Source of the DNA: Lytechinus variegatus | Taxonomy: Eukaryota; Echinodermata; Echinoidea; Temnopleuroida; Toxopneustidae | Reading direction: 5' to 3' | Assembly: GCF_018143015.1 (NCBI RefSeq) | Contig: NC_054741.1 | Location: 8,768,683-8,832,682 of the forward strand | DNA length: 64,000 nucleotides | Part shown: one piece after another, positions 3,713 to 64,000 of the stretch | How positions within the stretch are numbered: position 1 is the first letter of the stretch | How the letters are laid out: the number at the start of each line of letters is the position of its first letter | Notes under the pieces: generated by a model | Database searches by the model: none | The model's input: only the letters and a program-made list of their open reading frames with translations | What the model was told of the DNA's origin: nothing | Position numbers and translations under genes: made by a program

Positions 3713-4324
3713 TAACCTTCATTCTCCTATAACTGCACGGTGTAAAAATGCAAGCATGCCTATGATGTAAATTTATTTTCAGCGTTCCATTATTTGTTTC
3801 CGGATTGCCAGTTCAAGAGAACATCTTTAAACGTCGGCTTATCACAATATAATACAAATTTATATGACAGCCTTCAGACAACTTTATTTGAAATTGATGT
3901 CGTTGATGTTGAAGAAACCCATTTTAAATATGATGTTCAATGCCCAATTAACATTATAATCAAAAGATGCCAGAAGTTACTGTAAATTCTGATTTCAAAT
4001 TGCGTGTATTAATCACTGGCTTACAGATGGGAGGTGCCTGGGGAGGCAACCCCCCCCCCATGTTTCACGAATAAATAGGGGAGGGCAGAACAGAAGAGAA
4101 AAGGAAAATAGTGAAATGTTATCATATTCCAGGAATACTGTGTCAAACTCTACCCAAAAAATTTTGAATAAAAATGGTAAAATTTTATTCGCTCGCTTAT
4201 AGCTCTTTTTAGAACTTTCGCTCTATCCGTCATGCCCGACTCCTCCATTTTCTTTTTGCTATTTAAGCTTCTTGTCTTAATCATCTTTCTTCTAATGTTA
4301 AGTGTTTCTCTCTATTTTCGTTAG
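3713..4324. other. Intron 1 remainder of SLC7 gene 1
   Basis: Non-coding stretch between the LINE tail and the acceptor of gene 1 exon 2. It holds a C run near 4050-4059 and no recognisable gene. The first exon of gene 1 (the TM1 exon with a GSGIF motif) was looked for here and is absent. Confidence 0.7.
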
Positions 4325-7300
4325 GTTCCCTTATTTTCTCAGAGCTTGCTTTGATGTTCCCTAAGTCCGGCGGGGACCACACTTATCTCCAGGAGACCTA
4401 CGGCGATGTATTAGCCTTCCTGCATGGGTGGGGTGCCGTGCTGGTTGTCCGACCTATAACGTTAGCCATCGTTAGCATAGTGTTGGGTGAATATATCATC
4501 TATCCATACTTCGATGACCTGTGTTATCGGGATGAAACGATGGTCAAACTACATGCGGCTACATTTATTAGTAAGTACAGTTTTTTGTGAGGGGACAGAT
4601 GGACGGCGAAAGAAAATGTGTTTGGGGACAAGACAAATTTTTTACAGGTTTTTCAATTCTTTAAGAAGGGAAGGTGATATTTTGGATCACTAAATGCTTG
4701 AATATGACGCTTGTAAAAACACTGGCATAAATCCGGTCCGAGAAGAGGGGGGGGGGTGATTGCAATATACTGACCTCAAAAAAAAATGGGACACCCCACA
4801 CCAAGGGGCCATGCACACGGAGATATATAACCATGCATGTACATAATACTACCATCGTTCAGTTAAGGGCCTATGATTATTTTTTTTTGATGGCTATAAA
4901 GTATTGAATTGCAGTTAATATCAATATGCGAGCGAGCGAAGCGAGACAAAATGGTGTCCAAAACCTCTTTCAAGTGCATGGTGTATAATTATCATATCAC
5001 GGGCAATGTATACGTTTATACTGTAAAGGTGAATATTGCCATATTTCGGTTAAAGGCCTATCATGCTTTTTTATAATTTTGATGGCTTTATTGTACTGGA
5101 ATTGTTAGGATATAAAGTAATAAATTACAGTAAATATCAATATGCGAGCAAGCGAAGTGAGGGAGCAAATTTTTGTAATAGTTAGAAGACAGAATGATGA
5201 CCAAAATCGTATTTCAAGGGATGTGTAATTGTGGGAGAGATGCAGGAGTGAGCGTAGTACAGTATATGGTGAACAGTCCAGCATGTAGCACTGTTCCATT
5301 CTGTATTGTTTGTTTATACCATCTATAATGTCATCTATGTTTGTATCATAATTTGGTCAAACAAATAAATAAATGAATGAATAAATAAATAAATAAATAA
5401 ATAAATAATAAATAAATAAATGAATGAATGAATAAATAAATAAATAAATAAATAAAAAATAATAATAATATATTTTGTTCAATAAAAACTCATTTGCTCA
5501 CTGGTTAAAGATGAGAATGAAAAGAAGGGATCATGAACCGGGAATAAGGGTGTTTTATGATTGATTATAGGTATCTCAGGAAACGATATATACTTCCAAA
5601 AAGGTGGAAATACTAAAATCGTGAAAATTAAAAGAAACATATTGCAGGAATGAAAGATTTTGAAGTCTTCAAGATTATTGGAAGATGATGCAGCATTCAA
5701 AATTTGTAATGAAATTAATATTTGAAATATTCATTAGATTGTTATGGATTTTAAGTGATTCTTCTTCTTTACATATTTATATTCTTATAACAAACTGATT
5801 TTGTATAAATTTATGTTTGCCAAAATTTGAGAAATTTGTGAAATGGAAGAAAATAAATGTTTATTTGAATTGTGTATGCCTATATTTTTTGTACAAATTA
5901 TCCCCCGCTTCCAAAAACGATGCTAGGATAGTATGACCCCTAAAACATACACGCCAGTGTATTCAAAGGATGTCTTGATTGGTTTATGATCAGTTATAAC
6001 CATATTTAAAAATCGTTTGTATCTGATTCATAGATGGATGTATGAATACCGATGCAGGGGATATAACATTTGTAATATGCTAAACGTATTTATAGGGATT
6101 CGTCAAGGCGAAAATCCTTTAAGATTAGATTGAGGGCGGCAGCGGAACGACCGCGCGAGAAATTTGGCATTATTAGAAGGCAAAAACTGGGTAAATTTAA
6201 GCACTCTGGTCCCATCTAAAGATGAATCCATACATTAACAGTAGAATTGTCGTTTGATGATTGAAAATGAATATACTTTCTGTCTTGAAAAGTGTGTGTG
6301 TGTGTCGGGGGGGGGGGTTGATTGTACATGCCATCCCCCTCTCTGAAAAGCGGGGGATGGATGTATCCCCCATCCCCGGGATTTACGCCCGTGTGTAACA
6401 GCATATTTATAGCCCTAAATTCTGTTACAAAGATGGGCAAATGCCCCATGCCCTCCTTTGTGCCGCCACCGGTCAGTCAAATCTTCATCAGTAAACATCA
6501 TCAGTTAAATTATTGTCCGATCCTATTTCAGCGGGCCTTTACAAAAAACACAAGCTTCAATTCATAGATTACTCCTGACTTCACATGGTTATCAGCAATA
6601 CAATGAGTTCATACTTCCGTTATTTTGAATCAATTGAATGTTCTCTTTTTTCCTTGGTAACTGCAGTTGTCATGATGCTAGTGCATGGTTCTGGATTAAA
6701 GCTCATATCAAAACTTCAAGTAGTATTCACCAGCATCAAGGTCGTTACACTCTTGCTCATCATCATCGACGGCATGATCAACATCTCAATGGGTTCGTAT
6801 TCTTTCGTTAGGGGATTGTTTTGCTTCTGCTAATGGTTTGTTAATTTGTTGAGGGGAGTATCACAAATGAATGTTTACTAACTACTATAGTATTGGTTCA
6901 AAGACGATACCCCGTGGGATGTTCGCACGGTTTTAATAGGCCTATGTCATCATCATCATCATCATCGTCGTCGTCATCATCACCATCATAATCATCATCA
7001 CCACCACAATCATAATTATCATCATCGTCATCATCATTATCACATCGCTATCGTTATCACCCTCCTTCTACTTGTCCTACTCATCATCATCATCATCAGC
7101 AGCAGCATCATCATCATCATCATCACCATCTTATTCCCGAATGTGTGTGTATTTATTTAAAAAACTAAAAATAAAGTTGTTGAGTTTTCGAAATCAGGTG
7201 ATACATACATTCATCATACGGGTTCGTATTTTCATTTATAAACATTATTCGTATGCTCGTATAACTTCCGTACGGTTATGGATCTGTTTACATTATGGTA

Positions 7301-10300
7301 CTGTAATTCTGTAACCCCGTTCTGGATTCGTTTTCTCCACTAGAGTAGAATGTATTTATTTCGCGATTGCAAAGTGAACGGACTGCTGTCCTTTTATTTT
7401 CCACTATATAGAGAGAAAAGGAGAGAACAGAAATTATCTTAATTCAGTAATAGAGTGATGTTTTATTTATTTCAGGGTACACGGATTACTTGGATGTGAA
7501 TACGTCATTTGAGGGGACAAATAAGAACGCCTTTGCTTTCGGGATGGCCTTTTATCAAGGAATGTTTGCTTATGAAGGATGGTAAGTTTTAGTCTGTTAT
7601 TATTGCGTTTTTGTTCTATAATTACATATCAAAAAAAATCTCGGGAAATTCTACTTTATTTTATTTATTCTATATTAACGAAGGTGTATGCGCGTTTTAA
7701 CAAGCCCTTTTAAGGCTTTTTTGTGCAAGCTCCATTTCCATTCATTATTTCGTTCATTCATTATGTTCATAATTATTGTGCCAGCCATTATTTCATCAGA
7801 ACCACTATTTGTTCCAGCTGTGATACCGTTCATTTTGTTTTTGCTGATATTTACATTTTCTTTGTGTATGTATAATTTTGTTCTCATTGTGTTCTTTTAA
7901 ATGAATTTGGAAATGAATACTGAATTGAATTTATTTTTTGTCCCACAGAATTTGTCTATCTCCTCCCCCACCCTTTGTTTTATTTTAGAGGCTGGTCCTT
8001 GTTAAGGTCTATGTCTGTTATCCTTGCTTTCATGTAGATTTCATACATGATTAATACTCTGGATTTATGAAATTAACTTATACCACATTTTAAAAGAGTA
8101 CGATTAGTATAGTAATTCACCGAGCACAAATCGTATTTATCATAGTTGAAAATTGATGAGTGCAGCATGAAACGACCAACACAGTATTAGCTTGCAATTT
8201 CAATTTATTATTTGGTAAATGTACATTTGTTTTTCATCATTATGGAATAATTAAGGAAGACACCCATGCAGTTGCTGAGTGGTCAAAGGCGTCTGACTAA
8301 ATACATGTCCAAAAATGGTTCGGGGCTTAATCCCGGCCACAGTACTTAATGCCCGTGAGCAAGACATTTAATCAACAATGCTCTTTTATCGTACATTCAA
8401 ATAAATGAAAATGCTATGGGGAAGGCGGGGTAAATTTGGCCTATAAGGCCGATGATGAACGAGAAATCGATCAACCCTCGCTGTTTTGGCAGAATCGACA
8501 GAAAAGGCCTTGCAGTAGACTACCATGCAAAAAAAAAAATAAGAAATAAAAAATATCAAAATGGCCGCCAACCTGTCTATAGTGGTCACTTTCGCTGCTT
8601 CCCTCGAGTGTAGACAGGTTTGACTGTATTTGAAGAATTATATTAATTCCTTATCCCATATTTCCTTGATCCATCATCATAATGACGTATAATTTAATTC
8701 ATGAAAGGAATAGCACGAAAAGGCAAATGTCAACTTAAAAATCAATAAGTATACTATTCAGTTTTATACAAACATTACGACACCAAAAATAGAAAACCAA
8801 ACTGACACATCACGTATAATTTACATCTTGATAATTTCTTAGTGATAACCCATTCTGTCAACATGTCTGTTTTCAAATTATCTAACGATGGGTTTAAATA
8901 ATTGATCTTTGATAGCCAAGAAAGTTTATTTTTAAACAAACATTACAACTACATCCAAGGTCATCCAACCATTATCTTCCTCACCCAAAGCTTAATCAAT
9001 TGTTGTATCGTAAGTTAAGTGAAAAAAATAACAAGCTTGAGAGGAGAAAAAAGAACAAGCTTGCACTAGGTAAAATGATTTAATAAAATGTCATTTTTCT
9101 TTTTTTTACAGGAACTCTTTAACATTCACAATGGAAGAAATGAAAGACCCTGCTAAGTAAGTCATTAAATCGTAGTTAAGGAACGACAAGATTATAACTT
9201 GGCAACTTAACTTAAATTACTATTACTTATTAAAGTAAACGATCACCAACATTTTTGAGTGCAAGAATACAGAAACAGAATCATCGGTCATAATGATAAA
9301 TACGTGACAAATACATACAAAATATCATACATAAACATTTTGATTTGGTTTTGATTTGATTTTATATCTACATTTCACTAACAAAGTATACAAATGTATA
9401 AACACTATTCAGCATTTCATAACAATAAACATAATGATAGCATAATGATTACGATAGCAATCATTATCATGATTATGCTATATGAGATATAAAAGCCAGA
9501 TATAAATTGCACATGGAAAATTTTATCTTAAAAAATATGTTGACATATGTATATAAACTATTAAAGATATAATATAATTAAATATATCGTGTTAAAAATG
9601 AAATGTGGGAGACCGCCATTTTAAGCTCAAAAATTATATTGGAGAATGAAAGTGAATAGATGAGCTGGAAAGAAGAATAGTCCTTATGTCATGTACGTTA
9701 GACGTTGGCCCCTTTTATCAAATAAATGTTGTAAATAATCATTGAAAGTATGAAAACCAAAAGGTGGGTGTTAGGCTTTAATAAGGCTGATACATTATGG
9801 CAGGTATAATATTGTACTTTAAGTTTTAAACATTTTAAAATTAAACAACAAATAATCAACGCCGGTCTAATTATACTTCATCAATGAATACTTTGTTAAG
9901 AATTGTGCTTTCTTAAATACATTCGATGGATTTTACAAGATTTTTTGTTTCAATATACAATTAATATGATATTTCTTACTTAACAGAACTTTACCAAGAG
10001 CCATAATGATTGCCATGCCGACAATTACAGTTCTCTACGTATTGGTTAACATTTCTTATTACACCGTACTAAGTCCGCAACAAGTCCTTATGGACGAAGC
10101 AATCGCTACGGTAAGACATCGTTTATTCCATCACACACTTTGGTAAAATCTAACATGATTTAAACTCTCTGTAATCATTTTTAATAGTTAATCTTTCTTT
10201 ATAATTTGTTTAAAAAATAATGAAAACCTCTCCCTTGTAATGTAATGATATTTCGTGAAGATCAAACCACGTTTGACCCTACTGAACACTGGAAAAGAAA

Positions 10301-11744
10301 TATTTGACTTTTTTCGAATTGAAATTAAAATTCAGTTGTTTCACTTCTAAGAAAATAAAATACAATACTTTAGGAATTCAATTAAGTATAAATTTCAAAG
10401 ACAAAAAGACATTGTTACTTCATTAAACGTTTTAATTTTCTTATTTATTGGGATTTTTATGTTTTATAGAAAATGCCCTTTATCTGATATAGATGAAATT
10501 TCAATTTAACATTTTTATTTGGCTTAAACAAGTATTCAATAAATTTAAAAATGTGTAATTTCATTGTTCGTATGAGTTTGGCATGATTTCAATATGTCAT
10601 CATTATCTCGTTGGAAAGGTATAATACTTCTTTATCCTACTCTTTTTAATATTCCTCATAAGGGAATCACTGTTTCCATGAAGACTACCATCATTTTATT
10701 TTTAAATTTCCTCAGACATTCTCATCATTCACACTGCATGGGAAAGGCATTTTACAAAGGTGTTTACCATTTCTTGTTTGCTGTGCTGCAGTTGGGACAG
10801 CTAATGGTCTTTGTTATACATATTCTAGGTGAGTATCTACGGATATCTTAATTATTATGATCATTATTTCGTTTGAGAGTGACAGTTCCACCGCCAATGT
10901 GAGAAGGGTCTCAACTATCGTCAACAGGGGCGTTAAAGGTCAAGTCCACCTCAGAAAAATTGTTGATTTGAATCAATGGAGAAAAATCAGACAAGCACAA
11001 TGCTGAAAATTTCATCAAAATCGGAGGAAAAATTAGAAAGTTATGACATTTCAAACTTTCGCTTATTCTCAACAAAATAGTTATATGAGCCAGTTACATC
11101 CAAATGAGAGAGTCGATGATGTCACTCACTCACTATTTCTTTTGTTTTTTATTGTTTGAATTATACAATATTTCAATTTTTACGAATTTGACGATTAGGA
11201 CCTCCTTGCCTGAAGCAAAAAATGTTCAAGTTAAAATAATGGAATTCCATGTGTTCAGGGAGGAATGAAACTTCATTTCACATGACAATGACGAGAAAAT
11301 ACAAATGTTTCATATTAATAATAAAATACAAAAGAAATAGTGAGTGAGTGATGTCATCAACTCTCTGATTTGCATGTAACTGGCTCGTTCATATAACTCT
11401 TTTGTTGAAAATAAGCGAAACTTTAAAATGCCATAACTTTCTTATTTTACATCCGATTTTGATGAAATTTTCAGTGTTATGCTTGTTGAATTTTTCTCTT
11501 TTTATTCAAATCAAGTTTTTGTTGGGGTGGACTTGTCCTTTACGTACACAGAACTCTCTCAAAAGGGTGATCATAGGCTTAGGAGGCTACGTCATAATGT
11601 TTGTCTCTCATTGCCAGACCTTTTACCAGGGGAGCATTAATTGGTGCATTTTGAAATTGTTTTGTCCAAGTTCAAAATTTCTGCTGAAAGATCCATTCTC
11701 GATTAAAAGTTTACCACTTGCAAACCTAACGATTAAGACCTCAT

Positions 11745-11810
<66 letters not shown>

Positions 11811-14800
11811 TAGCATTATATTATATCTAGCATTCGTCAATAAGGGGGGGGGGATAAAATTCATCCCCCTCGGAATAACAACCCTTATTTTGTTTTCGGA
11901 TTAACGAGCAATCGGAATTACGAACCTTCGGAATATTTGAACTTTCGGAATAACGTACCTTCGTAATTACGAACGCATCCCAATTATTAGTTACCCCCCT
12001 AATCGTCAAGGATTAATTTCGCAATATTTCAATAGCGCCATCTATTCGAGTATCATTATATGTTGCCTAGTTGACAACTGAGCAAACTAACATATCAATG
12101 CCCTGAACGAAAGAGGAAATGAAGCTACTGGTGTTCAATATTTGAATATCTTGAAAACATTTGAAAAGTAAACTTATGGTCACACACAGTAAAGCAACAT
12201 TCAGCTATTGAAGTACTTACATCACATCTATTACGCTGATATGGGATACCTCCAACAATCTAATTTTAACATTTCATTTGTCATGTTTGTAAAGAGATTA
12301 TGATTCTGATGTATTTCAGTTAATTTTTATTATTAATTTCATTAGAATGGCTGTTGCTCTTGGTCGAGAAGGTCACATGCCTCAGATTGTAGGCATGGTA
12401 AACCCAGACACCATGTCACCCAACTTTGCTCTATTCCTCATGGTAAGTTTGGAACCCGTTTGAAACTTGAATATATAAATTTCCACTGAATAGGATCTAT
12501 CCGTCCAGTTTACTATCGTAACGGGGGGGGGGGGGGGGGGTTACCATGATAGAAGCTTTCTGACTTATTGTTCAGTTGTCAGAAATGTCTTGCCCATCCT
12601 GACGAGGTACAAATACTTGAATACATGTCACTGAATAGGATCCAAACTTCCATTCCTATCGTACAGGGGTGGGGTAGTTTACCCTGATAGAAGCTTTGTG
12701 ACTCATTATTATTTTTGTAAGTTGTTGTCCATTTTGACGAAATACCCCAATACGATTTGATGGTCTGGAGTCCGTTTCATAAAACTTTTAATAAAAGTTA
12801 AAAGCTACTGAGATCCTGCAGTCTGAATGACTGATTTACTGAGTAAATCTGCTAAAGAAATTCGGCATTTGTTATCATAAAAAAAATCTTCCCCTGTTTT
12901 TATTGCAACTACACTCTGAGAATTTAAAAGTTTTAAAAAATGACTGTATGATAATAGATGCAACTATTGTCGCATATCGCATTCTTTACATATAATTATT
13001 TTGTATGCTCAAATGCGACTAGAAAATAATTAATACGAAATGACTAAAATAATAATTGTATACACCTAGGCCTAGTTCCTGACCCGTTCATTTAGCCATT
13101 GTAATTGATATCTTTTACCACGTAAAAAAAAAACGATGATTGTAATATGACAATGGCATGACCATGTCAGATATTGTCCATTCAAAATCAAATTTAGCCT
13201 TCGGGGATCAAGGTCATCAAAATATTTGATCCGATTTTTACATAAGTGCAAACAGGAGAATTTGATATTGTATGATGATGATTTTTTTTTGCTGAACAAC
13301 CCCTTTTCAGGCAATTACAAGTACACTTTGACGCATTGAAAACTAAGACCAAGATAAAACATAACCCAAGCATAGCTTAAGCTATGTTCTGAATGTACAA
13401 TTTTCTATTTCTATTTTTTTTCTTCCTCCAGGGCCTTATGTCTATCATCACTCTTCTCATTCCGGTCAGCTTAGAACATTTAATTGAGTTTTTCAGCTTT
13501 GCTATCTGGCTATCATACTTTTTTATCTCCATCGCTGTACTTATCTTAAGATACACAAAGCCAGACCTTCATCGTCCTTTCAAGGTTAGTAGAACGCGTT
13601 TCCCTTTTTGAAGAGTGAATGTGTTTATCGTTTTTCTTCTCAGTACTTATCTCAAGGTTCGTAAACCCAGACCCCAATCGTCCTTTGAAATATTAGTGTT
13701 CCTAGAACATATTCACCTTTTTGAATAGTAAATTGGTCCTTTTCAGGACCAACACTTGCCCAAGAAAGATGGTGTACCGTGAAACCTACTACACTATTCT
13801 TCTTCGCCATGGAAACCTTCAGAATTTATAGATTCATCGTTTTAATCTCAATACTTGTTTATCTTAAAGTACAACAAACTAGACCCCAATCCTTAAAGAT
13901 CGCGAATCCAGTTTTGAGCAGTGAGTGCGTTTCATTGTTTATCTCAGTATATCTTAAGGTACACCGACTAGAACTAACATGGCTGTCAAGTTTAGTTTCC
14001 AGAACGTATTTCTCTTTTTTTTTAATGGTGAATGTATTCCCTGTCAAGTTCGGTGTCTATTGCTTATTTTAAGTTACCTCAAACCGGACCTTAATATACT
14101 GTTTAAGGTTTGTTTCCACTCCCCCTCCATCATGCTATGTCAATCATTTGCAATCATTATTAGTAATCATCGTTTTCAAGAGCGGATTCAGAATTTTCTT
14201 AATTGGATTAGGACCTAGGAGGGGGTATAGATTTTTTTATGATAATGATGAGGAGGAGAAGGATGATGATGATGATGATGATATAATAATAATAATAAGC
14301 TGGATTTATAGAGCGCATTTTGCCTGTGGATGCAAAGTGCGGCTTTAATTACCATTTAATTATAGGCGCTCAATATTTCTTCCGACCGGATACCTATCCA
14401 CCTCACCTGGGTTGAGCGCAGTACAATGTGGGTGAAATTCTCGCTGGAGGAAAACAGACCATGGCCAAGAATCGAACCCACGTCTCTCATATTGAAAGAC
14501 GATAGTCATAACCACTAGACCACGACTACTCCACAATAGTAAAGTTTGTTTAACTAATTTTACCAGCAAACTAAAACTATTGGGCGTATTTACTACCAAA
14601 TAAGTGTTGAACAAAAGGACATTGTTCCAAGAATGAATGTAATTGCATTATTATTTCAAGTGGTAGGGGCACCAAAGTAGACAGCTCTATTCACAGGGTA
14701 GTAAATTACAAAAATTGTGTATCACTTCGAGTCAAGGAGGGAGGGGTGCAGATTACATGCCCCTTTACTGCTCCTGATCGAATGACCACCATCTTTATCA

Positions 14801-15574
14801 GATCTTTAAAAAAAATCATTTTCTTTTCACTTCAAACCAGGTACACTGGTCGCTACCCGTCTTAATGGCTATTCTCTCTGTTTTCTTGATAATTGCGCCA
14901 TTCTTCGAAGCTCACGGTGTAAATGAGGTTATTGCCGCGACAGTGATTATCGTGGCTGGATTGATTGTCTACGTGCCTTTCATCTATTACAAATATCAGC
15001 CGCCATTTATGGGTAACAATAAATCTTCATCTGTTTTGTCATATTTTCTTCTAAAATCACCTTACTTGCATATTATGCAATTATTATTATTAAGTATTCA
15101 ATATGATATGTTAGGATATGTAATATAACGTTATGTTATGTTAAGTTATGTCATGTTATGTTCCACTCTAGTATTCACTCTCCTGCAGAATAGTCCATAT
15201 AGAGAGCTACTGTCATTTAGGGGGGCTGGTGACTTCAGCCCCCTTACTTTTTCCAATACCGCGGTACAAAAACGTGAAAATGACCATAGAATTGTGATTT
15301 TTGCATGGTCAGCCTCCCCCCACTTTGGAAACCGTTCCGCTGCCCTTGTAAACCCATCACGTGTTTACAAGTTGTTGTCATTGAAATCCAAACCTACCAT
15401 GACGTATTATATGCCATTATTACGAGTTGGTCTTTAATTTTTTTTTTTTCAGATAAAATCACCATCTTCGTTCAGCTCTTTTTATGCATCGTCAACACGG
15501 AATATAAACCTCCTGAAGACTTCCCAATAGATGAAGATGATCATCATAACTCCAAGAGCCACAACCACCGTTAG
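4325..15574 (+). CDS. SLC7 family amino-acid transporter light chain, gene 1 (5' partial)
   Basis: Membrane amino-acid exchanger subunit of the APC superfamily (LAT/b0,+AT branch), normally disulfide-linked to an SLC3 heavy chain. Exons read from splice sites: 4325-4570, 6667-6792, 7476-7581, 9112-9156, 9987-10110, 10716-10828, 12346-12442, 13432-13584, 14841-15012, 15453-15574. They join in frame to a TAG stop and give about 433 residues. The TM1/TM2 exon lies left of the window. Visible family marks are ELALMFPKSGGDHTYL (TM2-TM3 loop), a cysteine in DDLCYRDETMVKL at the heavy-chain disulfide position, EEMKDPAKTLPRAI, GREGHMPQI, and the PDLHRPFK end of exon 9. The C-terminal tail is acidic and His-rich. 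Exon lengths match gene 2 except for exons 2, 7, 10 and 11. The donor after exon 3 (6793, GTTCGT) is weak. Exon 7 is strongly diverged and has its own entry. The substrate cannot be told from sequence; function may differ from gene 2. Confidence 0.88.
4571..6666. other. Gene 1 intron 2
   Basis: Intron without recognisable genes. A diverged tandem duplication of about 215 bases lies at 4855-5290; both halves contain a GCGAGCGAGCGAAGCGAG-like string (near 4928 and 5144). An AAAT/AATG microsatellite occupies about 5361-5470, and a TG run followed by a G run lies near 6292-6318. Confidence 0.6.
6943..7125. repeat. (ATC)n microsatellite
   Basis: Imperfect run of ATC/GTC triplets with a few AGC and CACC interruptions, in gene 1 intron 3. 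Short Ser-rich open frames across it come from the repeat and are not genes. Confidence 0.85.
8262..8440 (+). mobile_element. tRNA-derived SINE (Leu/Ser-tRNA-like head)
   Basis: The head contains a box-A-like TGCTGAGTGGTCAAAGGC near 8273 and a box-B-like GGTTCGGGGCTTAATCCC near 8317. The tail reads AATGCCCGTGAGCAAGACAT and then AAATGAAAATGCTA. The same head and tail occur in reverse orientation at 56592-56743, which shows a repeat family and not a single tRNA gene. It lies in gene 1 intron 4; the rest of that intron (7582-9111) shows nothing else recognisable. Confidence 0.65.
9157..9986. other. Gene 1 intron 5, no further feature seen
   Basis: AT-rich intronic sequence between the 45-base exon 5 and the LPRAI exon. 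No repeat unit, RNA gene or coding signal was recognised. The following intron (10111-10715) is equally plain. Confidence 0.5.
10716..10828 (+). CDS. Gene 1 exon 7 (TM6), divergent version
   Basis: Coding exon at the position of the TM6 exon of the sister genes. It has a CTCAG acceptor and a consensus GTGAGT donor, starts in phase 0 and ends in phase 2. It is 113 bases, three codons longer than the 104-base copies. The frame reads TFSSFTLHGKGILQ, then CCAAVGTANGLCYTYSR. Only the first TF, a central P, ANG and the final SR are kept. The Ser-Thr-Phe-Gly core is replaced by Ala-Ala-Val-Gly, so the TM6 gate phenylalanine is missing. The open frame and good splice sites argue for a real exon. The divergence suggests altered substrate use or relaxed constraint. 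Confidence 0.72.
10932..11543. mobile_element. Large foldback (MITE-like) element
   Basis: Long imperfect inverted repeat of about 610 bases. The left end reads GTTAAAGGTCAAGTCCACCT; the right end is its near reverse complement (GGTGGACTTGTCCTTTAC at 11526-11543). The inner arms also pair: GAGTGATGTCATC near 11345 faces GATGATGTCACTCACTC near 11114. There is no coding capacity. A related copy with the AAGTCCACC end lies at 25081-25503. It is in gene 1 intron 7. Confidence 0.75.
11750..11808. repeat. (TA)n microsatellite
   Basis: Nearly pure TA dinucleotide run in gene 1 intron 7. Open frames that read it as alternating Ile-Tyr are repeat artefacts. Confidence 0.95.
12486..12765. repeat. Two-copy tandem duplication with an 18-G run
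   Basis: Two units begin with CTGAATAGGATC at 12486 and 12631, 145 bases apart. Both continue through TATCGTA, a G-rich run, TTACC(A/C)TGATAGAAGCTTT and a TGACGA block. The G run is 18 bases in the first unit (12523-12540) and much shorter in the second. It lies in gene 1 intron 8; the rest of that intron to 13431 shows nothing. Confidence 0.7.
13540..14130 (+). repeat. Degenerate tandem copies of the gene 1 exon 9 3' edge
   Basis: The end of exon 9, its donor and some 40 bases of intron seem to be repeated in the following intron. The real exon edge reads TACTTATCTTAAGATACAC, then CCAGACCTTCATCGTCCTTT. Diverged versions start near 13643 (TACTTATCTCAAGGTTCGT, then CCAGACCCCAATCGTCCTTT), 13853, 13947 and 14060. 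The copies contain stops and lack a good acceptor, so they are not alternative exons. They indicate local tandem duplication that included an exon boundary. Confidence 0.6.
14283..14533 (-). mobile_element. tRNA-derived SINE with (TAT)n tail
   Basis: Read on the minus strand, the head has GTCGTGGTCTAGTGGTTATG (box A) and GTGGGTTCGATTC (box B, near 14474-14486). The body includes CTCAACCCAGGTGAGGTGGA and CTCTATAAATCCAGC, and it ends in a TTA/TAT triplet tail at 14283-14299. The box B sequence, body and triplet tail are typical of a tRNA-derived SINE. The same body recurs in part at 40072-40235 and 50335-50535. It lies in gene 1 intron 9. Confidence 0.8.
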
Positions 15575-24770: not shown

Positions 24771-38937
<14,167 letters not shown>

Positions 38938-53985: not shown

Positions 53986-54157
53986 TAAAGGTACATGATT
54001 TGAGCGTCCAGCTCCCTTTTTATACCACAATTATGGCTACATTTAAAAGGCCACAATAATATAAAAGTTCATTTACCAAATATCAACCATGCCGATTTAT
54101 AGTATTGCTTGCTGGTTAAATTGGCTGAATGGTTAAACTGGTGTTATGTACAGACAA

Positions 54158-57100
54158 TCATGATTCCACAACAATGGCTTGTTCGTCTTCCTCCTGACTG
54201 ACATCTTCCTCAGGGGCCACAAACCTAGAGGGGGCTACTTCAAAGAGCAACTGAAAGAATATTGTAAGGTATTCTGAAATAAAGAGTGAAAATAAGAAAG
54301 AAAGTTATTTGAATAATGTAGGCAGCTGATGGATATATTAAAGTAATATAAAGATCATTTTACCAAAATGTATTAAACCTATGACATGAAACTTCCTCGT
54401 GGATAAAGCAATATTTGCAATATTTGTTATAAATTCAGCTTCGACTTTAACGAAATCAAATCGACTAAGAGGTTCATCATATATTGCCTCAGCTTGAATC
54501 CTCGCCTTATTCGAAGTGAGCTTTTGCATATATATAGACACCTGTAACAATGGTAACAGTACATGCATGTGCCTCTTTTCCACACTGTAAAAACTGTGGT
54601 GTTAAAACTGACACCAATTGGTGTTAATAGAGGACCACACCCTGAGGTGTTAAAATTACACCCTATAGATTGAACATAACACCGAAGAGTGTAAATGCAA
54701 CAACGAAAGGTGTTGTAATAACACCTATAGGTGTAAAACTAACACCACCAATTTAACACTGGTGTAAAATAACTGGTGTGGTCCTCTATGTACACCGGTT
54801 AACACCACAGTTGTTTTTGCTGTGCACAAAGGAAATCTGCACCCCTCCGTATATTCTATCCCCATTCCTCTCTCCCACACACTCTCTCTCTCTCCATTCC
54901 CTCCTCTCCTAACACAGTAGACTCAACTTCAACTTACTCATGCATCCTAATTCCTTCTTGTAGTAAACGAACGGGAGATATAGGATGAGACCAGATAGAA
55001 TGAAGAGGAATGCATACAGATATTGGAGAGCAGGTTCGTCAATGATAGGTGCTATCACAAGGTATACTGCCGCTATCAATACAATGATAGGTAACACAAT
55101 CGGAACCTGTCATTAAAAAGAAAGAAAAATCAGTAACACATCCTTGTTCATCAGAGGCGTAGATCCTGGGGGCAGGGGGGGGCGATCGCCCCACCAATTA
55201 AAATATTGGGGGGGGGGCAATCATATCGTCTTGCCCCCCCCCATTAATTCCGCTGAATGTGTAAAAATGAAATAAGATTGTAATGTTACACAGAAATCAG
55301 CAAGCGAGATTGAGATACCAACTCGTTCTTTATTTAAAATTGTGCTCAAAATGTCCTCTTTTTAGATTGGAATATCAAAATTTTCAGCTCGCGCTTCGCG
55401 CGCTCGCATTAATTTGTTGATGAGATATGTGTTTCTATCTCATGAGTCAAATATATGTATATATATAAATGCATACGTACACATATATGAGTGTGTGTGT
55501 GTGAGTTTGTTTTGTTTTGCCTTTGGAAAGTTGATTCAGGATTTTGCCCCCCAATCTGAAAATGGATCGACGCCCCTGTTGTTCATGTAGGCATAGTTTT
55601 CAGAGATAGCACAGCGCATATACTTTTCTGCCTTAATTGCGTAACATAACATATTGAAGGACAAAAAGAGAGTAATGGAGAATAATGGAGAGTCACATGG
55701 ATGACAGGCGAGGAATGGTAATAAGAGCAGTATATAAAACATCTGGGGTCCTTTTCATTAAGCTGTTCGTAAGTTAAGAGAGACTTTATGAACGACTGGT
55801 GATCCTTTCTTACGCGCTAAACCATCGCCGATTCCATATACTACTTACCGCAAGAAGGGATCACCATTCGTTCTTCAAGTCACTCTTAACTTACCAACAG
55901 CTTTATGAAACACCCACCTGTGATTATATTTTATTTATTATCAATTCAAACAGTAATGCCATTTTTATTATTATCATTATTTTCATTATTTTTCATTATT
56001 ATCATCATCATTATTATTATTATCGTTATTATTAGTATTTCCATTATCATTATTATAATTATTATTAGTAGTATTTCCATTATTTCCATAATTATTATCA
56101 TCATCATCATCATCATCACCACCACCATCATCATCATTATTATTTTTCGTCGTCGTCTTCAAAATCATCAAAAAAAACTTTATTTACAATACCTTTATTG
56201 GCCTTTTTGCATCAGGCCATTTATATCTGAGGTAAAGCAGTGCTGTTACTGTAATACCGTAGAACATCCAAGCTGCGAAACTGAAGTAGTTCACCAACGT
56301 ATCAAAGTCACTGGGTATCAACATCGCTATGGATAGAATCGTCTGAAAGATATCACAACAAATTAATTTAAGTAAAGTACAACGATAAAACAAAATATAA
56401 GACTGTTGACGAGTATTGTGAAAAGAGTGAGATGGGCTGAAATACGATTTAATCACAAACCTGACATTATTTTTTTGCAGGTTCTTTATTATTGTTATGT
56501 AATTTAAGTAACATTTGTCATTTTTTGTTTGGTTGAGCAATAACATTGGGTCACATTATACTTAAAAAAAAGGGCACACCTATTTATCAATAATGCATTT
56601 AGCATTTCCATTTATTTGAAAGCAAGATAAGAGAGCTTTGTAGATTAAATGCTTTGCTCACGGGCATAGGTGCCGCGGCCGGGGATCAAACCCCGGACTT
56701 TCCATGTATAGCCAGGCGCCTTAGACCACTCGGCCACGGCACCTCTACTACGGGTCACGTTATATTCATTTTTTTTTCTAGAGCGTATAAATGACGATGG
56801 GACGGTATAGAGTATATCAAAGTTTATCGCTTGAGAGTAGCCTAATTATCATTATCTTACCGTGAAAATCATAGCAGGAAAAGGAGTTAATCTCTTAACA
56901 TGAACCATGGACAATAGCTCCACCATATGACCTTCTCTTGCTGCTACGTAAGTAAGTCTGTAAATCAAGCAATTACATAAATCTTCAGAGTATAAATCTA
57001 TAAATTTGGAAAATAGACTAGGGCATATTTTCTTGAAAATATATAGGTAGAAGCTGCTTGGGTTTCCTTAACTTTGGGGAAAATTCTGAAAAAAAAATTA

Positions 57101-60100
57101 TGATAGGAAATTCACGATTTCCATTTTTATTAATATCGTGAAATCAAAATTTTCCATGAAAAAAATCTGTTTCCAGTTTCAAATGCTGAAAACCTGAGAA
57201 GTGATGTTGTTGTTGTTTTTTCTTCTTTATGTTGGAAATGTCTGAACAATTTTATTTTAAAAAACATTTAGAGGGACTGGATACTTCGTCTTTTTTCACT
57301 TTCTTTTGGTATGAGATCAAACTTCCATCAAAAGAAAGGGGAAGGATGTGTATGTTCTTTTTGATGGGAACTGGATCCAAAACTAAAACCCCACAAGAGA
57401 AAAATTCTTATATTGTTCTTTTAAGTGGTTATTTGCTATCACATTTTGTAAAATCGAATACATGTCGAGCGAAAATTATTTTGGATGCTAATCTACTATA
57501 AACACTATGCCAACAAGCATTAATGTAAGGGCCTATCCATCTCTTACCCCCGTTTATCTAAATATGATTATATGCCATTTGCCTTATCAATCCAGTGATG
57601 AATTATATACTAAATTCATGTCGTTGAAATAGTTCACGCATTGTGATTAAAATCAGTGTATCCTGGTAAAAGATATCTACATAATCTAAAGAAGATATGA
57701 ACTAAGCATTGCTATAATAGAAGACTACATAATAAATGAACTTTCGAAAGTATAACCTTTTGCTTACTAAAACCGACTTTGTTATCGATTACTACATTAC
57801 AATAGCTTGAAGTGCTGAGCCGAAAGAAGGGTTAGTAATCATTTCGCTACATGTACCAGTTTAAAACATCATTTCAAATTTTATAAATTGTACATTCTAT
57901 TGAAATCAACAATGAGGATTAATTTTAATTTTGTTGCAGCTTTGACTCGACTTCATTTTCTTATGTATACAATCTGTACAGTCTCTGGTATTTTACAGCT
58001 GGATCAGATCAATGTAAAAAATAAAAGAAAATAAATAGAATTGTTATCCTACGGCATGTAAGTGGAGACCACTTCTATAATGGTTGTTAAATTATACGCT
58101 TTCAATCTTATATCAGCATCATGGCAATGCCTTTAATGAATTTCAAACAATAAAAGCTGGTTGCTTAATTTGCATGATGTATATCATTTTATGTTAATTA
58201 GCTAGACGATTGATTCCTCCCTACACCTTAAAAAATAATTATGGAAAGTTTGACTCATAAAGAAACTGACAGGGCAAGTTAATTAAACAAATAATAGAGC
58301 CAATAGACATATACATGTATAATTCTATTTATACTGGAAAATGACACTTTAATTGAATTGCCTAAACGACAAATTTTAACCCCTGTCAAATTATGCTACT
58401 TTGAAATAAAAGATGGAGCATTGCTATGGAAAAATATATATCAAGCTTTCTTCTTTGTATGACAAAATGACACAGCAATAATGTAATATGAGAGATAAAT
58501 GAGTGAATAAATTAATTTGAGACTGCATGGAGACATTACATGAAAGAGACGATTGCACATAATATTTCACAACAAAAGCTGATACAGCACACACAATTTT
58601 GTTTACATCACACACACACTTACGCTCAGTTATGTAGTATGAGCGTTACGTAACATGATAGACCCGTGCACACAATTGCAGTGTTTTAAGAAAGTATATT
58701 AAAGGATTAAATGGTGCAATAAAATAGGAAGCAATGTAAATAAGAATTAATCAACAAGAGATTATCAGCAAAGAAAGATTTTTTTCCATCAACATCATAA
58801 ACAAAAATTCGTAATAACTTTTTTATTCTGCTTTTCAATTTCGAAAAGAAAGTGATTCAATTAGATCATTAAGAACTGATTTTAAGTGGCTGTATAGAAA
58901 TAGAGAGTGAATAAAAGTGAAGACAACTATAATAATGGCTAGACAGTTTAGAAAGTCTAATTTTCTGATCTAAGCTCTGCTTTATATATACTTCATTTAG
59001 ATACAATGTATACCTTCCCGCGGTAAACAAAGTACCGTTAGCTGAGCCAAATGTTGACAGGGCAACAGATACAGGTATAATCCAAGTCATCAAACCAAGA
59101 GTTCGATTTCCTAACGTCTTCAGATAGTGAGTCCAATGAGAAGAAAATAACACACACTTGATTTTTCCATTTATTTAATAACTAGCATAGCTGAGAAGGG
59201 GGGATAGGGGAAGGGGTTATTATTTAAGTTGGTCAAGGGATAGAAAACATACATATAACATAAAAAAATAACATGTTAGGTTAGAGGATCTTCTCGGGTA
59301 TATGTTAGGGTGAATGGTCATAAGAATGTACGCCTTTTGATCCATCAATTTTGTGATGAAAATAATTTTTACAATAAAGACTGAAAACTGTGAAATAACA
59401 CATATATAAATCAATTGCATGATTCGTAACATCTATGAACATCCGAGCATGATTATGTGTTTGCATGCATGAAATATCGTCATGAAAAAGGATCGGCATT
59501 GAATGATTTTTAGGTACATAGCGTATGACAGATTCATAACAATGATTTCTGATTGCATTGTGCTGAAAATGTAGTGATCTGCATATTTACAATCTCAAAC
59601 AGAAATAATCAAGAAATAATTTATTTGATTAAACTATGTGTGATACAACGAGCGTGATAGGAGTGATTGAATGTTTCTAATACGAGGGTGTGCCGCCCTT
59701 TAACACATTATGGACATGATATACTTTTGATCGTTAAAATGTTTATAATAACTCCAGTCTCTGGAGTTAAATAATTTTAATACACAATTGGTCAAAGTAA
59801 CCAATCTGATGGTTAATGTGTCCGACGGATTAAAAAAAAAGTCAATATTACCTAAATTCTGGTAGATTCTAACCATTACTTTGGTTGATTTTAACATTTT
59901 TTTTATCGGTCGGACACAATAACCAACACCGTACTGGCTATTTGACAAATCTCTTCAGAGTATTGACACTTCAAAGGGAATAGGCCTATTTTTCTTCTCA
60001 TTTATTCAGTACAAAGATTGTGTACAAAGTTCATTTATAGCAAAATTTATACACTCTTGATAGTAACTCTTTTCGCAACGGACCGTTGAATTATGAGTTG

Positions 60101-63100
60101 CAAAGGTGCTTTATTTCCACTATTTTTAGGATACTAGTAGAAAAAAAATGTAAAACATGAATACTCATAGTAAGATTTAGGTCATGTTATATTATTCACG
60201 TTATGTAGACGATTGCATGATTTGCATTTAACTATTGGAAATATTATTTTGAACAAATACAGTCCTTTTCATTTGAGAAGAGAGAACAAAGAGGTGAAAA
60301 ATAAAAAGAACAATATTCAAAGACCTTTGTTTTAGATATCTGTTGCAAATACTTATGTATATGACGACCACATATCAAGTTGTTTGATATCGATATTCAT
60401 GAGAGAGAAGCGTTGATATTTTCTTTTTTGCATTTCTTTTTAAGATCATCCTTTATTTCATAATATATGAGCGCAAATTTTGATAGAAAATATTACCTTC
60501 CTGCTGAAAAAATCGTCCCGTTTGCTGCCCCAAACGTCGACATAGCAACAAATATTGGCATAATCCAAGCTATGGGACCAAGTGTACGGTTTGCGTACGT
60601 CTGCATTTTACAATATTGATAATTCCGTATTACTATATAAGCATTTACGAAAGTATTTGGGGGAAATATGTGCCATTAGAAAACGAATGTTAATCGTGAA
60701 ATGTCAAGTTTTACATTTATTTCTATTCTAAATGTTTATAATTGTTATAAACCACGTTTGCACCATTCGGAAATCAGTGAAATGTATGTTTAAATTAACC
60801 AAATTAAATTATACATTTTTAGCAGAAACTTTGAAAAATAGAATATTTCTTCCTTGATTCATTTAAAAAGTGAGCTATTTTCACTGCAAATGATGTCAGC
60901 GTACATCGACTTGTAAAACATCTTAAATAATTTTTAAAAAGAAATCCATTTTGAAAAGAAATGAAGCAAAAAGAACAGCCATATCATTTGAACCGAAAAA
61001 ATGTGATGATGTCACGACATAAACGAATAAAACAAATTAATGCCAACACGAAGCAAGAACACGGAGTCACACAGAGTAAAACTATGATAATTACAAAATA
61101 ATGATACATTTAGATAAAATGTTATGTGAGTGGGACCATATAAACAAGAGTAAATTTTAATATTGACAGGGTCACTGGAGGAGGGATTGGTACATGGGTG
61201 GGAGGGGTGCAAAGTGGTATCTGTTGCTATGACTGACAAATTACGGAGATGCGCAAAGATAATCAGGTATATGGGTCTCTTAGGACAAGGCCGCGACAGG
61301 ATAAAGAATATTATCCCCCAAAACAACGACTTTACAAGCCATCAAGGTCGGGCAAGGCCATGCAGCCTCGCCCCAATCCCTGACGGTGACTGATGATCGG
61401 TAATGCGAACAATCGGAAGGGAAGCATGGGTGATTGGGCGGGGTGCATGCATGGGCGTGGTCATCTAATACCTTCCCGCTGCAAATGTTGAGCCGTTGAG
61501 AGCGCCAAATGTAGACATTGCCACAAATACAGGCATGATCCAAGACATTACTCCAAGGGTACGATCACCGAACGTCTATGCAAAAATCATCAACAACAAC
61601 AATACAACAGGCATGGTGGTAATTAAAAAAAAACGGTGTGCTTTTTAATAAGTGTCGGGATGACTAACAAATGGGATGTTATAGAAGACATCATGGTGAT
61701 CGTGGTACCTCGTATCCACAGTAGGCCTATTACCGATTGCCTGCTTTAGTGAAGAGCAAAACTATTATTCAGATGCACAAAATAAATGTAGACATACACG
61801 ATTAATGAGATGACTGAAACATTGTACTTTCTATCCGACAAAATGAAATTCAATCGAAAATCGAATTGTTAACTCAACCGGGCTGACACACACATATATA
61901 TATAAATATTAAATGGTCTCAGTCATGGTTCAGTCCTTGGCAGTGAAATTTACATTGGGACTATATAGAGGAAGCATATTTCAAATTCGGCTTCTATGTA
62001 AACTTGTGAAAACTCGACTGACTATGCTGACGTAGACATGATGAGATGAGATGTCAAAAACACATCACGGGAAGTGGACTAGCTACACAGACATTGTGAT
62101 ATAACTATACTGAATTATGAAGCATTACTGTATGATCCTTTTTACGCTCTTATTTACCTTTGATGTGAAGAAGCAGAAGCGCAACAAACGATTAAAAACA
62201 ACGTGATATAAAGACAGACGATGCTACAAAAAGAAAAGCCCGGAGCGCAAGGCTATTTTACAGGCGCGGTGCAGGGGGATGGGCAATACAACCATTCTTC
62301 AGCTGATTAGCAGGGTAATAATTAGATTAACACGACCAAGATATTTTTATTATACCCTTCTCTTATCCTCTTTCTCCTCTTGAATTCCCTTTATATTTTT
62401 TAACTACTTAAAAAAAATCAAAGGGGGAGTCGGACCCATGAACCCTTTCAGCGCCGCCCCATGCGACAAGCAACAAAATAAATGATAAACGACAACTTTA
62501 TTTTGGCAACAATTTTCACAACACTGCAGCATGATAAAATAGTCTACCTTCCACCTGTAAATAGTGTTCCGTTTGCAGCACCAAATGTAGAACATGCTAC
62601 TGATAGTGGCATTATCCATGCCATAACACCCAACGTTCGCTGACCAAACGTCTGTCAATGATAATTTACAGGAATTTATAGAAGAATGATTCTTTTAATC
62701 AATCGAAAAAAAGGGTTTCGGTCATTCGTTCTAGAACCGTTATAAACTCGATCGTGATATTGTTAGAATTGTATGTAAATGCACATACAGTTATGAAGGG
62801 CTATAGATGTATGGAGCCACAAACACAGGCATGTATGGTCCAAGAAAATGACTCCAAAATGCGACCATCCAACGTCTATTCAAAATCAAACAAGATAATG
62901 AATAATAAACCATTTACTTGAAAAAAAAATTATTATCTGGGGGTACTTAAAAAGGAGAGGAACTTTCATTCAAATGTTAAAAAATAACATAAACGATTAA
63001 TGAGTTAACTAAAATATTGTTAAGAATAAACTTTATGTGAAAATGGAAATAAAATTCAAAGAGAACCCATTTAACCCATACAGATTTAACGATAATCGAA

Positions 63101-63597
63101 AAAAAAGTCTACATTGACAACCTAAAGGCCTTTTATGAAAACTAGCAGGAAGCACGACTGATGTATGTGATGTCAAAACAATATAACTGTGTAAACCAAA
63201 CGAAGGATGCACAACTATAGAATGGAATTGGAAATGGCCAAATGAAACCATGGCTATCACGAGAAGTGGACCCAAATAATTATGGTCAGACAGTGTGACA
63301 TCCGATTAAGATTTGTAGTGTCATTCTAGAAGCCATTTCGTTAAGAAGAAAAACAAGGGACAAAATATGATGAAACATCGTAATATATAGAGACAGATGA
63401 ACTAATATGGATTACGATATATAGACACTACTGGTACGGTAACTGAACTAGAGAACGATTCCATTTGGGCAACGATTGTCACAAGTAGTCTACCTTCCAG
63501 CCGTAAAAAGTGTTCCGTTTGCAGCACCAAATGTAGAACATGCTACTGAGAATGGCATTATCCATGCCATAACACCCAATGTTCGCTGGCCAAACGT
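54158..63597 (-). CDS. SLC7 family amino-acid transporter light chain, gene 3, with multiple alternative TM6 exons (5' partial)
   Basis: Minus-strand gene homologous to genes 1 and 2 and sharing their intron positions. Constant exons in the window, in transcript order: exon 8 at 56861-56957 ([19 protein letters not shown]), exon 9 at 56193-56342 ([28 protein letters not shown]), exon 10 at 54938-55106 ([28 protein letters not shown]) and exon 11 at 54158-54273 ([19 protein letters not shown], acidic tail, TGA). Upstream of exon 8 lie five intact copies and one broken copy of the 104-base exon 7, each encoding TM6 with its gate motif. Any single copy plus exons 8-11 gives 211 residues and a stop. 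Exons 1-6 must lie right of the window. TM6 sequence ([19 protein letters not shown]) resembles LAT2-type transporters. Product: amino-acid exchanger light chain whose substrate-binding helix is probably chosen by alternative splicing. Confidence 0.9.
54581..54826. mobile_element. AACACC/GGTGTT-rich foldback element, copy 2
   Basis: Left end CACACTGTAAAAACTGTGGT and right end CCACAGTTGTTTTTGCTGTG are inverted repeats. The interior is a series of GGTGTT/AACACC palindromes, with GAGGACCACACC near 54633 and GGTGTGGTCCTC near 54775. About the same length and word order as copy 1 at 25818-26037. It lies in gene 3 intron 10. Confidence 0.75.
55152..55578. mobile_element. Non-autonomous hAT element with 8-bp target duplication
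   Basis: Ends CAGAGGCGTAGATCC and GGATCGACGCCCCTG are imperfect inverted repeats of the CAGNGGCG type. Flanks are identical 8-mers TTGTTCAT at 55144-55151 and 55579-55586. An 8-bp duplication with CAG...CTG ends is the hAT signature. The interior holds a GCTCGCGCTTCGCGCGCTCG string (about 55385) and G/C runs, with no transposase. It lies in gene 3 intron 9. Confidence 0.85.
55746..55915. mobile_element. MITE with TTTCATAAAGCTGTTCGTAA ends, copy 2
   Basis: Left arm CTTTTCATTAAGCTGTTCGT, right arm CCAACAGCTTTATGAAACAC; interior CTTACGCGCTAAACCATCGCC as in copy 1 at 36847-37012. No clear target duplication. It lies in gene 3 intron 9. Confidence 0.75.
55950..56150. repeat. (ATT)n/(ATC)n microsatellite
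   Basis: Imperfect ATT, ATC and ACC triplets immediately downstream (in transcript order) of gene 3 exon 9. Ile-rich and Asn/Asp-rich open frames here are artefacts. Confidence 0.9.
56592..56743 (-). mobile_element. SINE with Leu-tRNA-like head and intact acceptor stem
   Basis: The minus-strand head (56743-56669) starts GGTGCCGTGGCCGAGTGGTC and ends CGGCACC, so the 7-bp acceptor stem GGTGCCG/CGGCACC pairs fully. The T-arm CCGGGGTTTGATCCCCGG also pairs. The anticodon arm does not fold normally, and the 75-base length lacks the long variable arm of Leu/Ser tRNAs. The tail matches the SINE at 8262-8440 (TGCCCGTGAGCAAAGCAT). It lies in gene 3 intron 8; the rest of that intron (56343-56860) shows nothing. 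Confidence 0.7.
56958..59013. other. Gene 3 intron between exon 8 and copy A
   Basis: AT-rich sequence of about 2 kb. It was searched for further copies of exon 7 (reverse complement of the STFG core and GGAAGGTA donor) and none was seen. No other feature recognised. If a shared docking element for exon choice exists, this intron is one place to look. Confidence 0.5.
59014..59117 (-). CDS. Gene 3 alternative exon 7, copy A
   Basis: Copy nearest to exon 8. It opens with ACG after a GAAG acceptor and reads [15 protein letters not shown], then [18 protein letters not shown]. 104 bases, phase 0 in and phase 2 out; the AG left over joins the A of exon 8 to make Arg. The donor is GTATAC, without G at +5. 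It keeps the gate Phe in STFG and has Leu before it. Confidence 0.88.
59811..59924. repeat. Small inverted repeat between copies A and B
   Basis: Arm GGTTAATGTGTCCGACGGAT (59811) pairs with ATCGGTCGGACACAATAACC (59905-59924) with few mismatches; A and T runs inside extend the stem. The loop is about 55 bases. It may be a small MITE or an RNA hairpin in the pre-mRNA of gene 3. Confidence 0.55.
60497..60600 (-). CDS. Gene 3 alternative exon 7, copy B
   Basis: Acceptor ATGCAG, donor GTAATA. Reads [15 protein letters not shown], then [20 protein letters not shown]. 104 bases, phase 0 to 2. It differs from the other copies by YAN at the start and IF after the proline, with Met before STFG. Confidence 0.9.
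60601..61471. other. Introns between alternative exons B to F
   Basis: No coding sequence beyond the exon copies was seen in 60601-61471, 61576-62547, 62652-62804 or 62876-63493. The intron between C and D and the one between E and F share several blocks (CGATTAATGAG near 61800 and 62994; GAAGTGGA near 62071 and 63263), which shows they were copied with the exons. Confidence 0.55.
61472..61575 (-). CDS. Gene 3 alternative exon 7, copy C
   Basis: Acceptor GCATAG, donor GTATTA. Reads [15 protein letters not shown], then [20 protein letters not shown]. 104 bases, phase 0 to 2. It is the only copy with Leu in GALNG. Its flanking introns resemble those of the dead copy E. Confidence 0.9.
62548..62651 (-). 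CDS. Gene 3 alternative exon 7, copy D
   Basis: Acceptor TTGACAG, donor GTAGAC. Reads [15 protein letters not shown], then [20 protein letters not shown]. 104 bases, phase 0 to 2. It has Cys before STFG. By hand count it differs from copy F at 7 of 104 bases, five of which fall in three changed codons or codon pairs, so the two arose recently. Confidence 0.9.
62805..62875 (-). pseudogene. Gene 3 exon 7, decayed copy E
   Basis: Keeps the AATAG acceptor and the ACG start. Reads [13 protein letters not shown], then loses frame by one base (ATGCCTGTGTTTGTGGCTCC is the old MPVFVA). The STFG core and donor are gone, and an in-frame stop follows. Its closest relative is copy C (shared ATGCCTGT(A/G)TTTGTGGC). 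It cannot give a working TM6. Confidence 0.78.
63494..63597 (-). CDS. Gene 3 alternative exon 7, copy F
   Basis: First copy in transcript order within the window. Acceptor GGACAG, donor GTAGAC. Reads [15 protein letters not shown], then [20 protein letters not shown]. 104 bases, phase 0 to 2. Near-identical to copy D. More copies may exist right of the window. Confidence 0.9.
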
Positions 63598-63714
63598 CTG
63601 TCCATGCATGATAACATTTACAAAGATTTACGAAAAGAAAGATATGTATTCATGAGTAGAATCAATAGGCGAAAAGGCTCTGGTGAAGGCTACTCGTCTA
63701 CCCAACAAATTCAA

Positions 63715-63798
63715 TCATCATCATCATTATCATCACCATCAACATCATCATCATCACCATCACCATCATCAATCATCATCATCATCATCATCATCATT
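63715..63798. repeat. (ATC)n microsatellite
   Basis: ATC/ACC triplet run in gene 3 intron sequence upstream of copy F. The Ser-rich open frame is an artefact. 63799-64000 holds AT-rich sequence with nothing recognised. Confidence 0.9.
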
Positions 63799-64000
63799 AG
63801 AGATTTAATTTAACAGTAATTTTTGAAATTTTAGTAATTGAAATTGAACTGAATCGACTTCAGATGAATTGAATTAGTGTCAATATAAATACAATTAATC
63901 CAAATATTTTTGGGGAAAATAACTACAGTAAATCCGAATTAAATGGAAATTAAAACGCTTTAATCAATTCAATAATGTCTTTGTAGTAGTTGGTGTTATG

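Follow-up and report, generated by a model that had tools for sequence, protein, structure and literature searches.

Exon copies and common exons at the locus

The window analysed here, 64,000 nucleotides (nt) of the genome of the sea urchin Lytechinus variegatus (contig NC_054741.1, positions 8,768,683 to 8,832,682), carries on its minus strand part of an SLC7 amino-acid transporter gene in which one exon occurs in several tandem copies. Five intact copies, named c1 to c5 in gene order, lie at 63494-63597, 62548-62651, 61472-61575, 60497-60600 and 59014-59117. They are homologous, exactly 104 nt long in 5/5 cases, bordered by AG on the 5' and GT on the 3' side in 5/5, and open in one common frame; direct reading thus confirms what an earlier note on this DNA had described. 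The decayed copy mentioned in the same note was found between c1 and c2 at 62804-62875 on the minus strand. It is c3-like (76% by BLAST across 71 aligned columns), has only 24 open codons and matches our exon profile weakly (7.2). A repeat finder run over 54000-64000 placed c1-c5 in a single family.

Downstream of the copies, on the same strand, follow the common exons e8 (97 nt, 56861-56957, with frame and splice sites), e9 (150 nt, 56193-56342), e10 (169 nt, 54938-55106) and the last coding exon e11 with the stop codon (54158-54273). Exon e8 codes for the end of transmembrane helix 8 (TM8), a cytoplasmic loop and the start of TM9, e9 for TM9-TM10 and e10 for TM11-TM12. When spliced in silico, each of c1-c5 reads in frame through e8-e11 to one stop codon, and the five readings, 211 residues each, are identical apart from each copy's own 34 residues. 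Introns among the copies measure 842-1379 nt, and c5 is separated from e8 by 2056 nt. Only 403 nt of the window remain on the upstream side of c1, exons 1-6 lie beyond its end and the copy number is a lower bound; the array may be longer than the copies within the window.

A profile built from 40 relatives was run against all open stretches of at least 15 codons in six frames of the whole window. The array copies scored 72.7-83.8 and the TM8 exons of two neighbouring genes 55.8 (34648-34751) and 18.9 (about 10716-10828), whereas the next best match outside the TM8 exons of the three genes reached 8.9. An ordinary gene with a single such exon plus chance look-alikes is refuted by these scores.

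The gene resembles SLC7A9

In a structure-database search with the spliced c3 product, b0,+AT (SLC7A9) was the best match (E 1.3e-63), followed by an engineered consensus xCT (1.2e-51), LAT2 (2e-46), xCT (1.7e-42) and LAT1 (7.5e-40). By sequence b0,+AT is nearer than LAT1, LAT2, xCT, y+LAT and Asc-1. A LAT1-type system L identity, closest to SLC7A5/SLC7A8, was rejected since b0,+AT scores higher, and the LAT1-like assignment of the earlier note has to be replaced. The best NCBIfam match was TIGR00911 'L-type amino acid transporter' with 172.9 bits, to be read against a cut-off of 701.8 that is set for the whole protein while our query is a fragment; we take this family to cover the entire LAT branch, b0,+AT included. 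A protein-database search with the common exons and four of c1-c5 listed the best 120 of 1,680 matches. At the top stood sea-urchin and starfish entries under the name b(0,+)-type amino acid transporter 1 or 1-like, followed by mostly other deuterostomes, some arthropods and an annelid. The common downstream part agrees with the L. pictus protein P0001, which carries a c4-type exon, at 174/177 residues. b0,+AT pairs with rBAT (SLC3A1) as a heterodimer. Cys144 of human SLC7A9, presumably the residue of the disulfide bond, corresponds to C158 of P0001, and this cysteine is invariant among 40 aligned proteins. Human SLC7A9 is the closest characterised protein by sequence, its TM6 landmarks are present in the L. 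pictus protein, and it is taken to have a single exon for the segment that matches the array. Judged by these comparisons, the array and e8-e11 form the 3' portion of an SLC7A9-like (b0,+AT-like) gene of the sea urchin.

The copies code for TM8

The exon aligns to residues 292-325 of b0,+AT, 314-347 of LAT1 and 306-339 of xCT (numbers taken from structure chains and corrected for tag lengths). The TM6 residues Trp230, Asp233 and Asn236 of b0,+AT correspond to W246, D249 and N252 of P0001, 56-62 residues before the exon start at 308; these landmarks were read in the L. pictus protein, as the TM6 exon of the urchin gene itself lies outside the window. Asp233 and Asn236 are described as TM6 substrate residues, Asp233 being equivalent to LAT1 Gly255 (excerpt of PMC9110406). 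An AlphaFold model of P0001 (pTM 0.82, 40 sequences), which matches SLC7 structures across approximately 37-498, has helices at 234-256, 264-293, 296-301, 305-313 and 315-349. We number these TM6, TM7, extracellular loop 4 (EL4) and TM8, and in the model the exon, 308-341, is in EL4 and TM8. It codes for the end of EL4 and most of TM8; the remainder of TM8 and the following loop are in e8. The earlier note had labelled the exon TM6 and taken the Phe of its S-x-F-G motif for the substrate gate Phe252 of LAT1. Neither holds: the Phe of S-T-F-G is LAT1 position 336, and the Phe252-type gate lies 62 residues upstream. A swap of the SLC7A2 type, across TM8-TM9, was likewise rejected since the array piece comprises EL4 and TM8 up to P0001 341.

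Divergence and reading frame of the copies

The ten pairs of copies share 22-32 of 34 residues. Pooled differences by codon position are 72/36/188, so that third positions account for 188/296, and the ratio of nonsynonymous to synonymous divergence (dN/dS) is 0.07-0.26 in 10/10 pairs, as under purifying selection, with synonymous sites near saturation in several. Synonymous divergence (dS) among copies is approximately 0.9-2.7, except for c1/c2 with about 0.2. This pair is identical at 95/102 nt (dS 0.22, dN 0.03), c2 being the nearest duplicate of c1. Homology is limited to the exons and a few flanking bases, with two exceptions, a 161-nt stretch (86%) around c1/c2 and a single intron match of 34 nt. 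The copies therefore appear to be old and separately retained rather than haplotypes of one exon, and with a dS of 0.22 c1/c2 is probably a more recent duplication.

Because the exon is 104 nt long, two copies or none break the frame, and the choice of a single copy would therefore be enforced. All 10/10 two-copy combinations in gene order shift the frame and meet a stop after 36-47 residues, and skipping of every copy leads to a stop after 20 residues. The frame is kept with one copy or, by arithmetic, with four; these outcomes were computed and not observed in RNA. Clusters of mutually exclusive exons have been defined by adjacent exons of similar length, conserved splice-site type and frame, and homology (excerpt of PMC3228551), and c1-c5 agree with this definition in length (all 104 nt), AG/GT borders (5/5) and frame, and homology (22-32/34 residues). 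Taken together, the exon structure is best read as an array whose copies would be used exclusively in RNA, with proteins predicted for other species as indirect support.

Related exons in other species

Versions resembling several copies occur in predicted proteins of other echinoderms. Copy c4 shares 34/35 residues with isoform X2 of L. pictus and 28/35 with isoform X2 of S. purpuratus, c5 shares 21/26 with a protein fragment of S. purpuratus, and c1 shares 30/35 with a Diadema protein. In S. purpuratus, the c4-type protein and the c5-type fragment share nearly the same C-terminal part. In a tree of the TM8 exon, c4 grouped with L. pictus (support 0.927) and these with S. purpuratus (0.83), while the c5 pairing received 0.755 and c1/c2 with Diadema 0.787. 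The names of relatives follow the sources, several of these names being marked as predicted. Entries of the protein database are grouped at 90%, which probably conceals many isoforms that come from a single gene.

Starfish b0,+AT-like isoforms belong to the same gene family and vary in a further exon. The Patiria isoforms X4 and X6 differ at 38 positions, 38/38 of them at P0001 101-174, within the exon for TM3-4, the boundaries of which were taken from the exon 27400-27648 of a neighbouring gene (gene B, see below). Of the 52 differences between A. rubens X1 and A. amurensis X4, the TM3-4 exon accounts for 35 and the TM8 exon for 13, which leaves 4 outside both; this Asterias pair thus differs in the TM8 exon in addition to the TM3-4 exon.

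As a separate observation, starfish pairs, possibly also crinoids, seem to exchange the TM3-4 exon between two types (P0005/P0006, P0009/P0014, P0015/P0018). In the crinoid pair, which spans two genera, this exon is identical at 47/78 residues compared to 86-95% elsewhere. Teleost SLC7A9-like entries (P0037 to P0116, 12 species, mostly named isoforms) have identical TM8 exons in 16/16 hand-picked pairs from the same species. Fourteen of these 16 pairs are identical from about P0001 264 to the end, and the TM1-TM6 half differs at 75-134 positions. The teleost pattern could come from a constant 3' half joined to differing 5' halves, or from an annotation that has merged tandem paralogues.

Pocket positions

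Within the transporter family the side chain of the substrate is reported to face TM3, TM6, TM8 and TM10, and the equivalents of AdiC Trp293 are given as LAT1 Cys335 and Ser342, GkApcT Met321 and SteT Lys295; mutation of SteT Lys295 or GkApcT Met321 widens selectivity (excerpts of PMC8399266). For xCT, Ser330 and Gly334 of TM8 reportedly contact the substrate and govern the flexibility of the helix (excerpt of PMC8654953). At the position of LAT1 335 all of c1-c5 have T. Position 338 reads A,A,A,A,S, the serine of c5 standing at LAT1 Ser338/xCT Ser330, and position 342 reads T,T,S,T,T, with c3 having the serine of LAT1 Ser342. Position 339, a neighbour of the contact sites, is A,A,L,A,A, again with c3 as the exception. 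The two contact positions that vary thus do so conservatively and in one copy each.

Neighbouring genes and other features of the window

Two further SLC7A9-like genes on the plus strand form a cluster of three with the array gene. Gene B has coding exons at 24771-37888; nine exons were assembled, open in two blocks and with the last exon left out, and the placement of a short exon after 31100 is uncertain (candidate match at 32329). Its single TM8 exon lies at 34648-34751 (plus strand, profile score 55.8). The more divergent gene A matches at about 4297-15541 and has a single TM8 exon of 113 nt at about 10716-10828 (plus strand, score 18.9). Both genes serve as internal controls: there is no array in either of them and each has its own downstream exon matches. 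The array belongs to one gene of the cluster and not to the family as such. The TM8 exon of gene B has Val at the selectivity position (NGV).

Some other features were observed in passing. The intron between c4 and c5 contains an imperfect palindrome of roughly 122 nt at 77% (59807-59928), which might be a small mobile element. At about 56668-56740 of the minus strand, within the intron that follows e8, there is a tRNA-like stretch (GCCGTGGCCGAGTGG...GGTTTGATCCCCGG...) that is perhaps a tRNA-derived repeat; neither ARAGORN nor Rfam made a call there. At 1527-2810 of the plus strand, two open frames resemble part of the reverse transcriptase of a non-LTR retrotransposon, judged from their translations alone.

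Discussion

We propose, with a probability of about 0.8, that this b0,+AT-like gene has at least six tandem copies of its TM8 exon, five of them intact, and that splicing chooses one per mRNA, making it a mutually exclusive array. An upstream exon outside the window would be joined to one copy and that copy to e8 (56957-56861). Each mRNA would code for a whole transporter carrying one TM8 helix out of at least four that clearly differ, and TM1 and TM6, which hold the backbone of the amino acid, would be unaffected by the choice. To this extent the genomic sequence favours the idea of the earlier note that an SLC7 gene from the heteromeric LAT branch holds an alternative-exon array and that splicing is the likely selector.

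A number of observations weigh against this proposal. Copies c1, c2 and c4 are identical at LAT1 335, 338 and 342 and only c3 and c5 differ. A permutation test that assumes an ideal helix, with the pocket direction set by LAT1 335, 338 and 342, gave no excess of variable positions at the pocket face (P = 0.18); nor was there an excess at any one face (P = 0.69). An RNA-pairing control element was sought and none was found, as 3/24 shuffles were equally good. Donor sites of the copies match at 6-7/9 positions and the other donors checked at 6-8/9; since these counts are nearly equal, splice-site weakness lends little support. In regard to other species, starfish and amphioxus versions are nearly as near to c1 (up to 29/35) and 'c1-like' may just mean the ancestral form, c3 has no clear partner among the segments compared, and the tree is based on 35 columns with cross-species supports of 0.755-0.927. 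Both Patiria isoforms carry an identical TM8 exon, and the starfish TM8 difference lies between two species of Asterias, not within one.

Could the array be an artefact of assembly, in which haplotypes or distinct paralogues were merged at a single locus? Two more SLC7A9-like genes lie in the same cluster, a setting that could allow misassembly. However, the introns between the copies are unalike save for the two short matches (161 nt at 86% around c1/c2, and another of 34 nt), similar versions of the copies occur in other species, and one e8-e11 set serves the array whereas the neighbouring genes have downstream exon matches of their own. We consider an artefact very improbable. It is also rather improbable, if less so, that a single copy is in use and the others are silent or decaying relics of exon duplication. 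The copy at 62875-62804 is visibly decaying, but the other five retain frame, length and splice sites at a synonymous divergence of about 0.9-2.7 (0.2 for c1/c2) and a dN/dS of 0.07-0.26, and c4-, c5- and c1-like versions occur in predicted proteins of other sea urchins.

A more serious contender concerns the consequence rather than the existence of the choice. The copies could be used exclusively but tune a property other than the choice of substrate, for instance the affinity or turnover of the transporter, its trafficking, its stability with the SLC3 partner or its response to lipid or pH; to this we give slightly less than even odds. Residues that differ among the copies are distributed around TM8, and the known contact positions are the same in c1, c2 and c4. 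Excerpts of two articles fit this view: TM8 flexibility, beyond direct contacts, is reported to be important in xCT (PMC8654953), and the alternative exon of SLC7A2 is reported to alter affinity (PMC7584565). On the other hand, c3 and c5 alter known side-chain-contact positions (LAT1 342 and 338). Returning to mutually exclusive choice as such, the copy chosen would probably act on the TM8 wall of the pocket and its packing and in this way alter affinity, turnover or the range of substrates, and a shift in affinity or turnover would be as likely as a shift in the list of substrates. The retuning of the pocket suggested in the earlier note is thus plausible insofar as TM8 contacts the side chain of the substrate in relatives, but backed in part only, as the varying contacts are conservative and the pocket-face test gave P = 0.18.

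This kind of arrangement has been described in a few other transporters (SLC7A2, slc7a1a, SLC12A1), and the number of versions here is unusual. SLC12A1 (NKCC2) is a cation-chloride cotransporter whose swapped exon codes for a different helix, and SLC39A14 and SLC25A3 have exon pairs and folds unrelated to SLC7. A third mutually exclusive exon is present in SLC12A1 (excerpt of PMC9741552); SLC39A14 and SLC25A3 are listed as solute carriers with mutually exclusive exons, and clusters made up of three to ten exons of this type are known in human (excerpts of PMC5740500). Nearest to our case are SLC7A2 (CAT-2A/CAT-2B) and slc7a1a/slc7a1b with exon 6a/6b, likewise SLC7 genes with homologous alternative exons that code for part of TM8. 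In SLC7A2 and teleost slc7a1a these start approximately midway through TM8 and end about midway through TM9, and CAT-2A and CAT-2B differ in substrate affinity (all from excerpts of PMC7584565). Whereas those systems have two versions and belong to the CAT branch, the urchin gene has five intact copies and belongs to the heteromeric b0,+AT-like branch. The earlier note knew of no multi-copy TM6 array in a LAT-type gene. Likewise, no previous account of such an exon array in echinoderms or in SLC7A9-type genes appeared among the open-access literature matches listed.

On a more tentative level, echinoderm b0,+AT-like genes might be combinatorial transporters in which TM3-4 and TM8 exons are swapped independently with TM1 and TM6 constant, so that one gene would yield a panel of pockets; the sea urchin would have expanded the TM8 choices to at least five. 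We regard this as possible, though doubtful. Of these helices, TM3 and TM8 are turned towards the substrate's side chain, and TM1 and TM6 hold the amino-acid backbone.

Defects of human SLC7A9 lead to cystinuria, LAT1 and xCT supply tumours, and echinoderms absorb dissolved amino acids from sea water. If the array is used as we propose, splicing would provide a natural series of TM8 variants on one scaffold in this family. A comparison of the isoforms would bear on how far TM8 alone sets affinity and selectivity, and also on the reason why echinoderms keep several versions.

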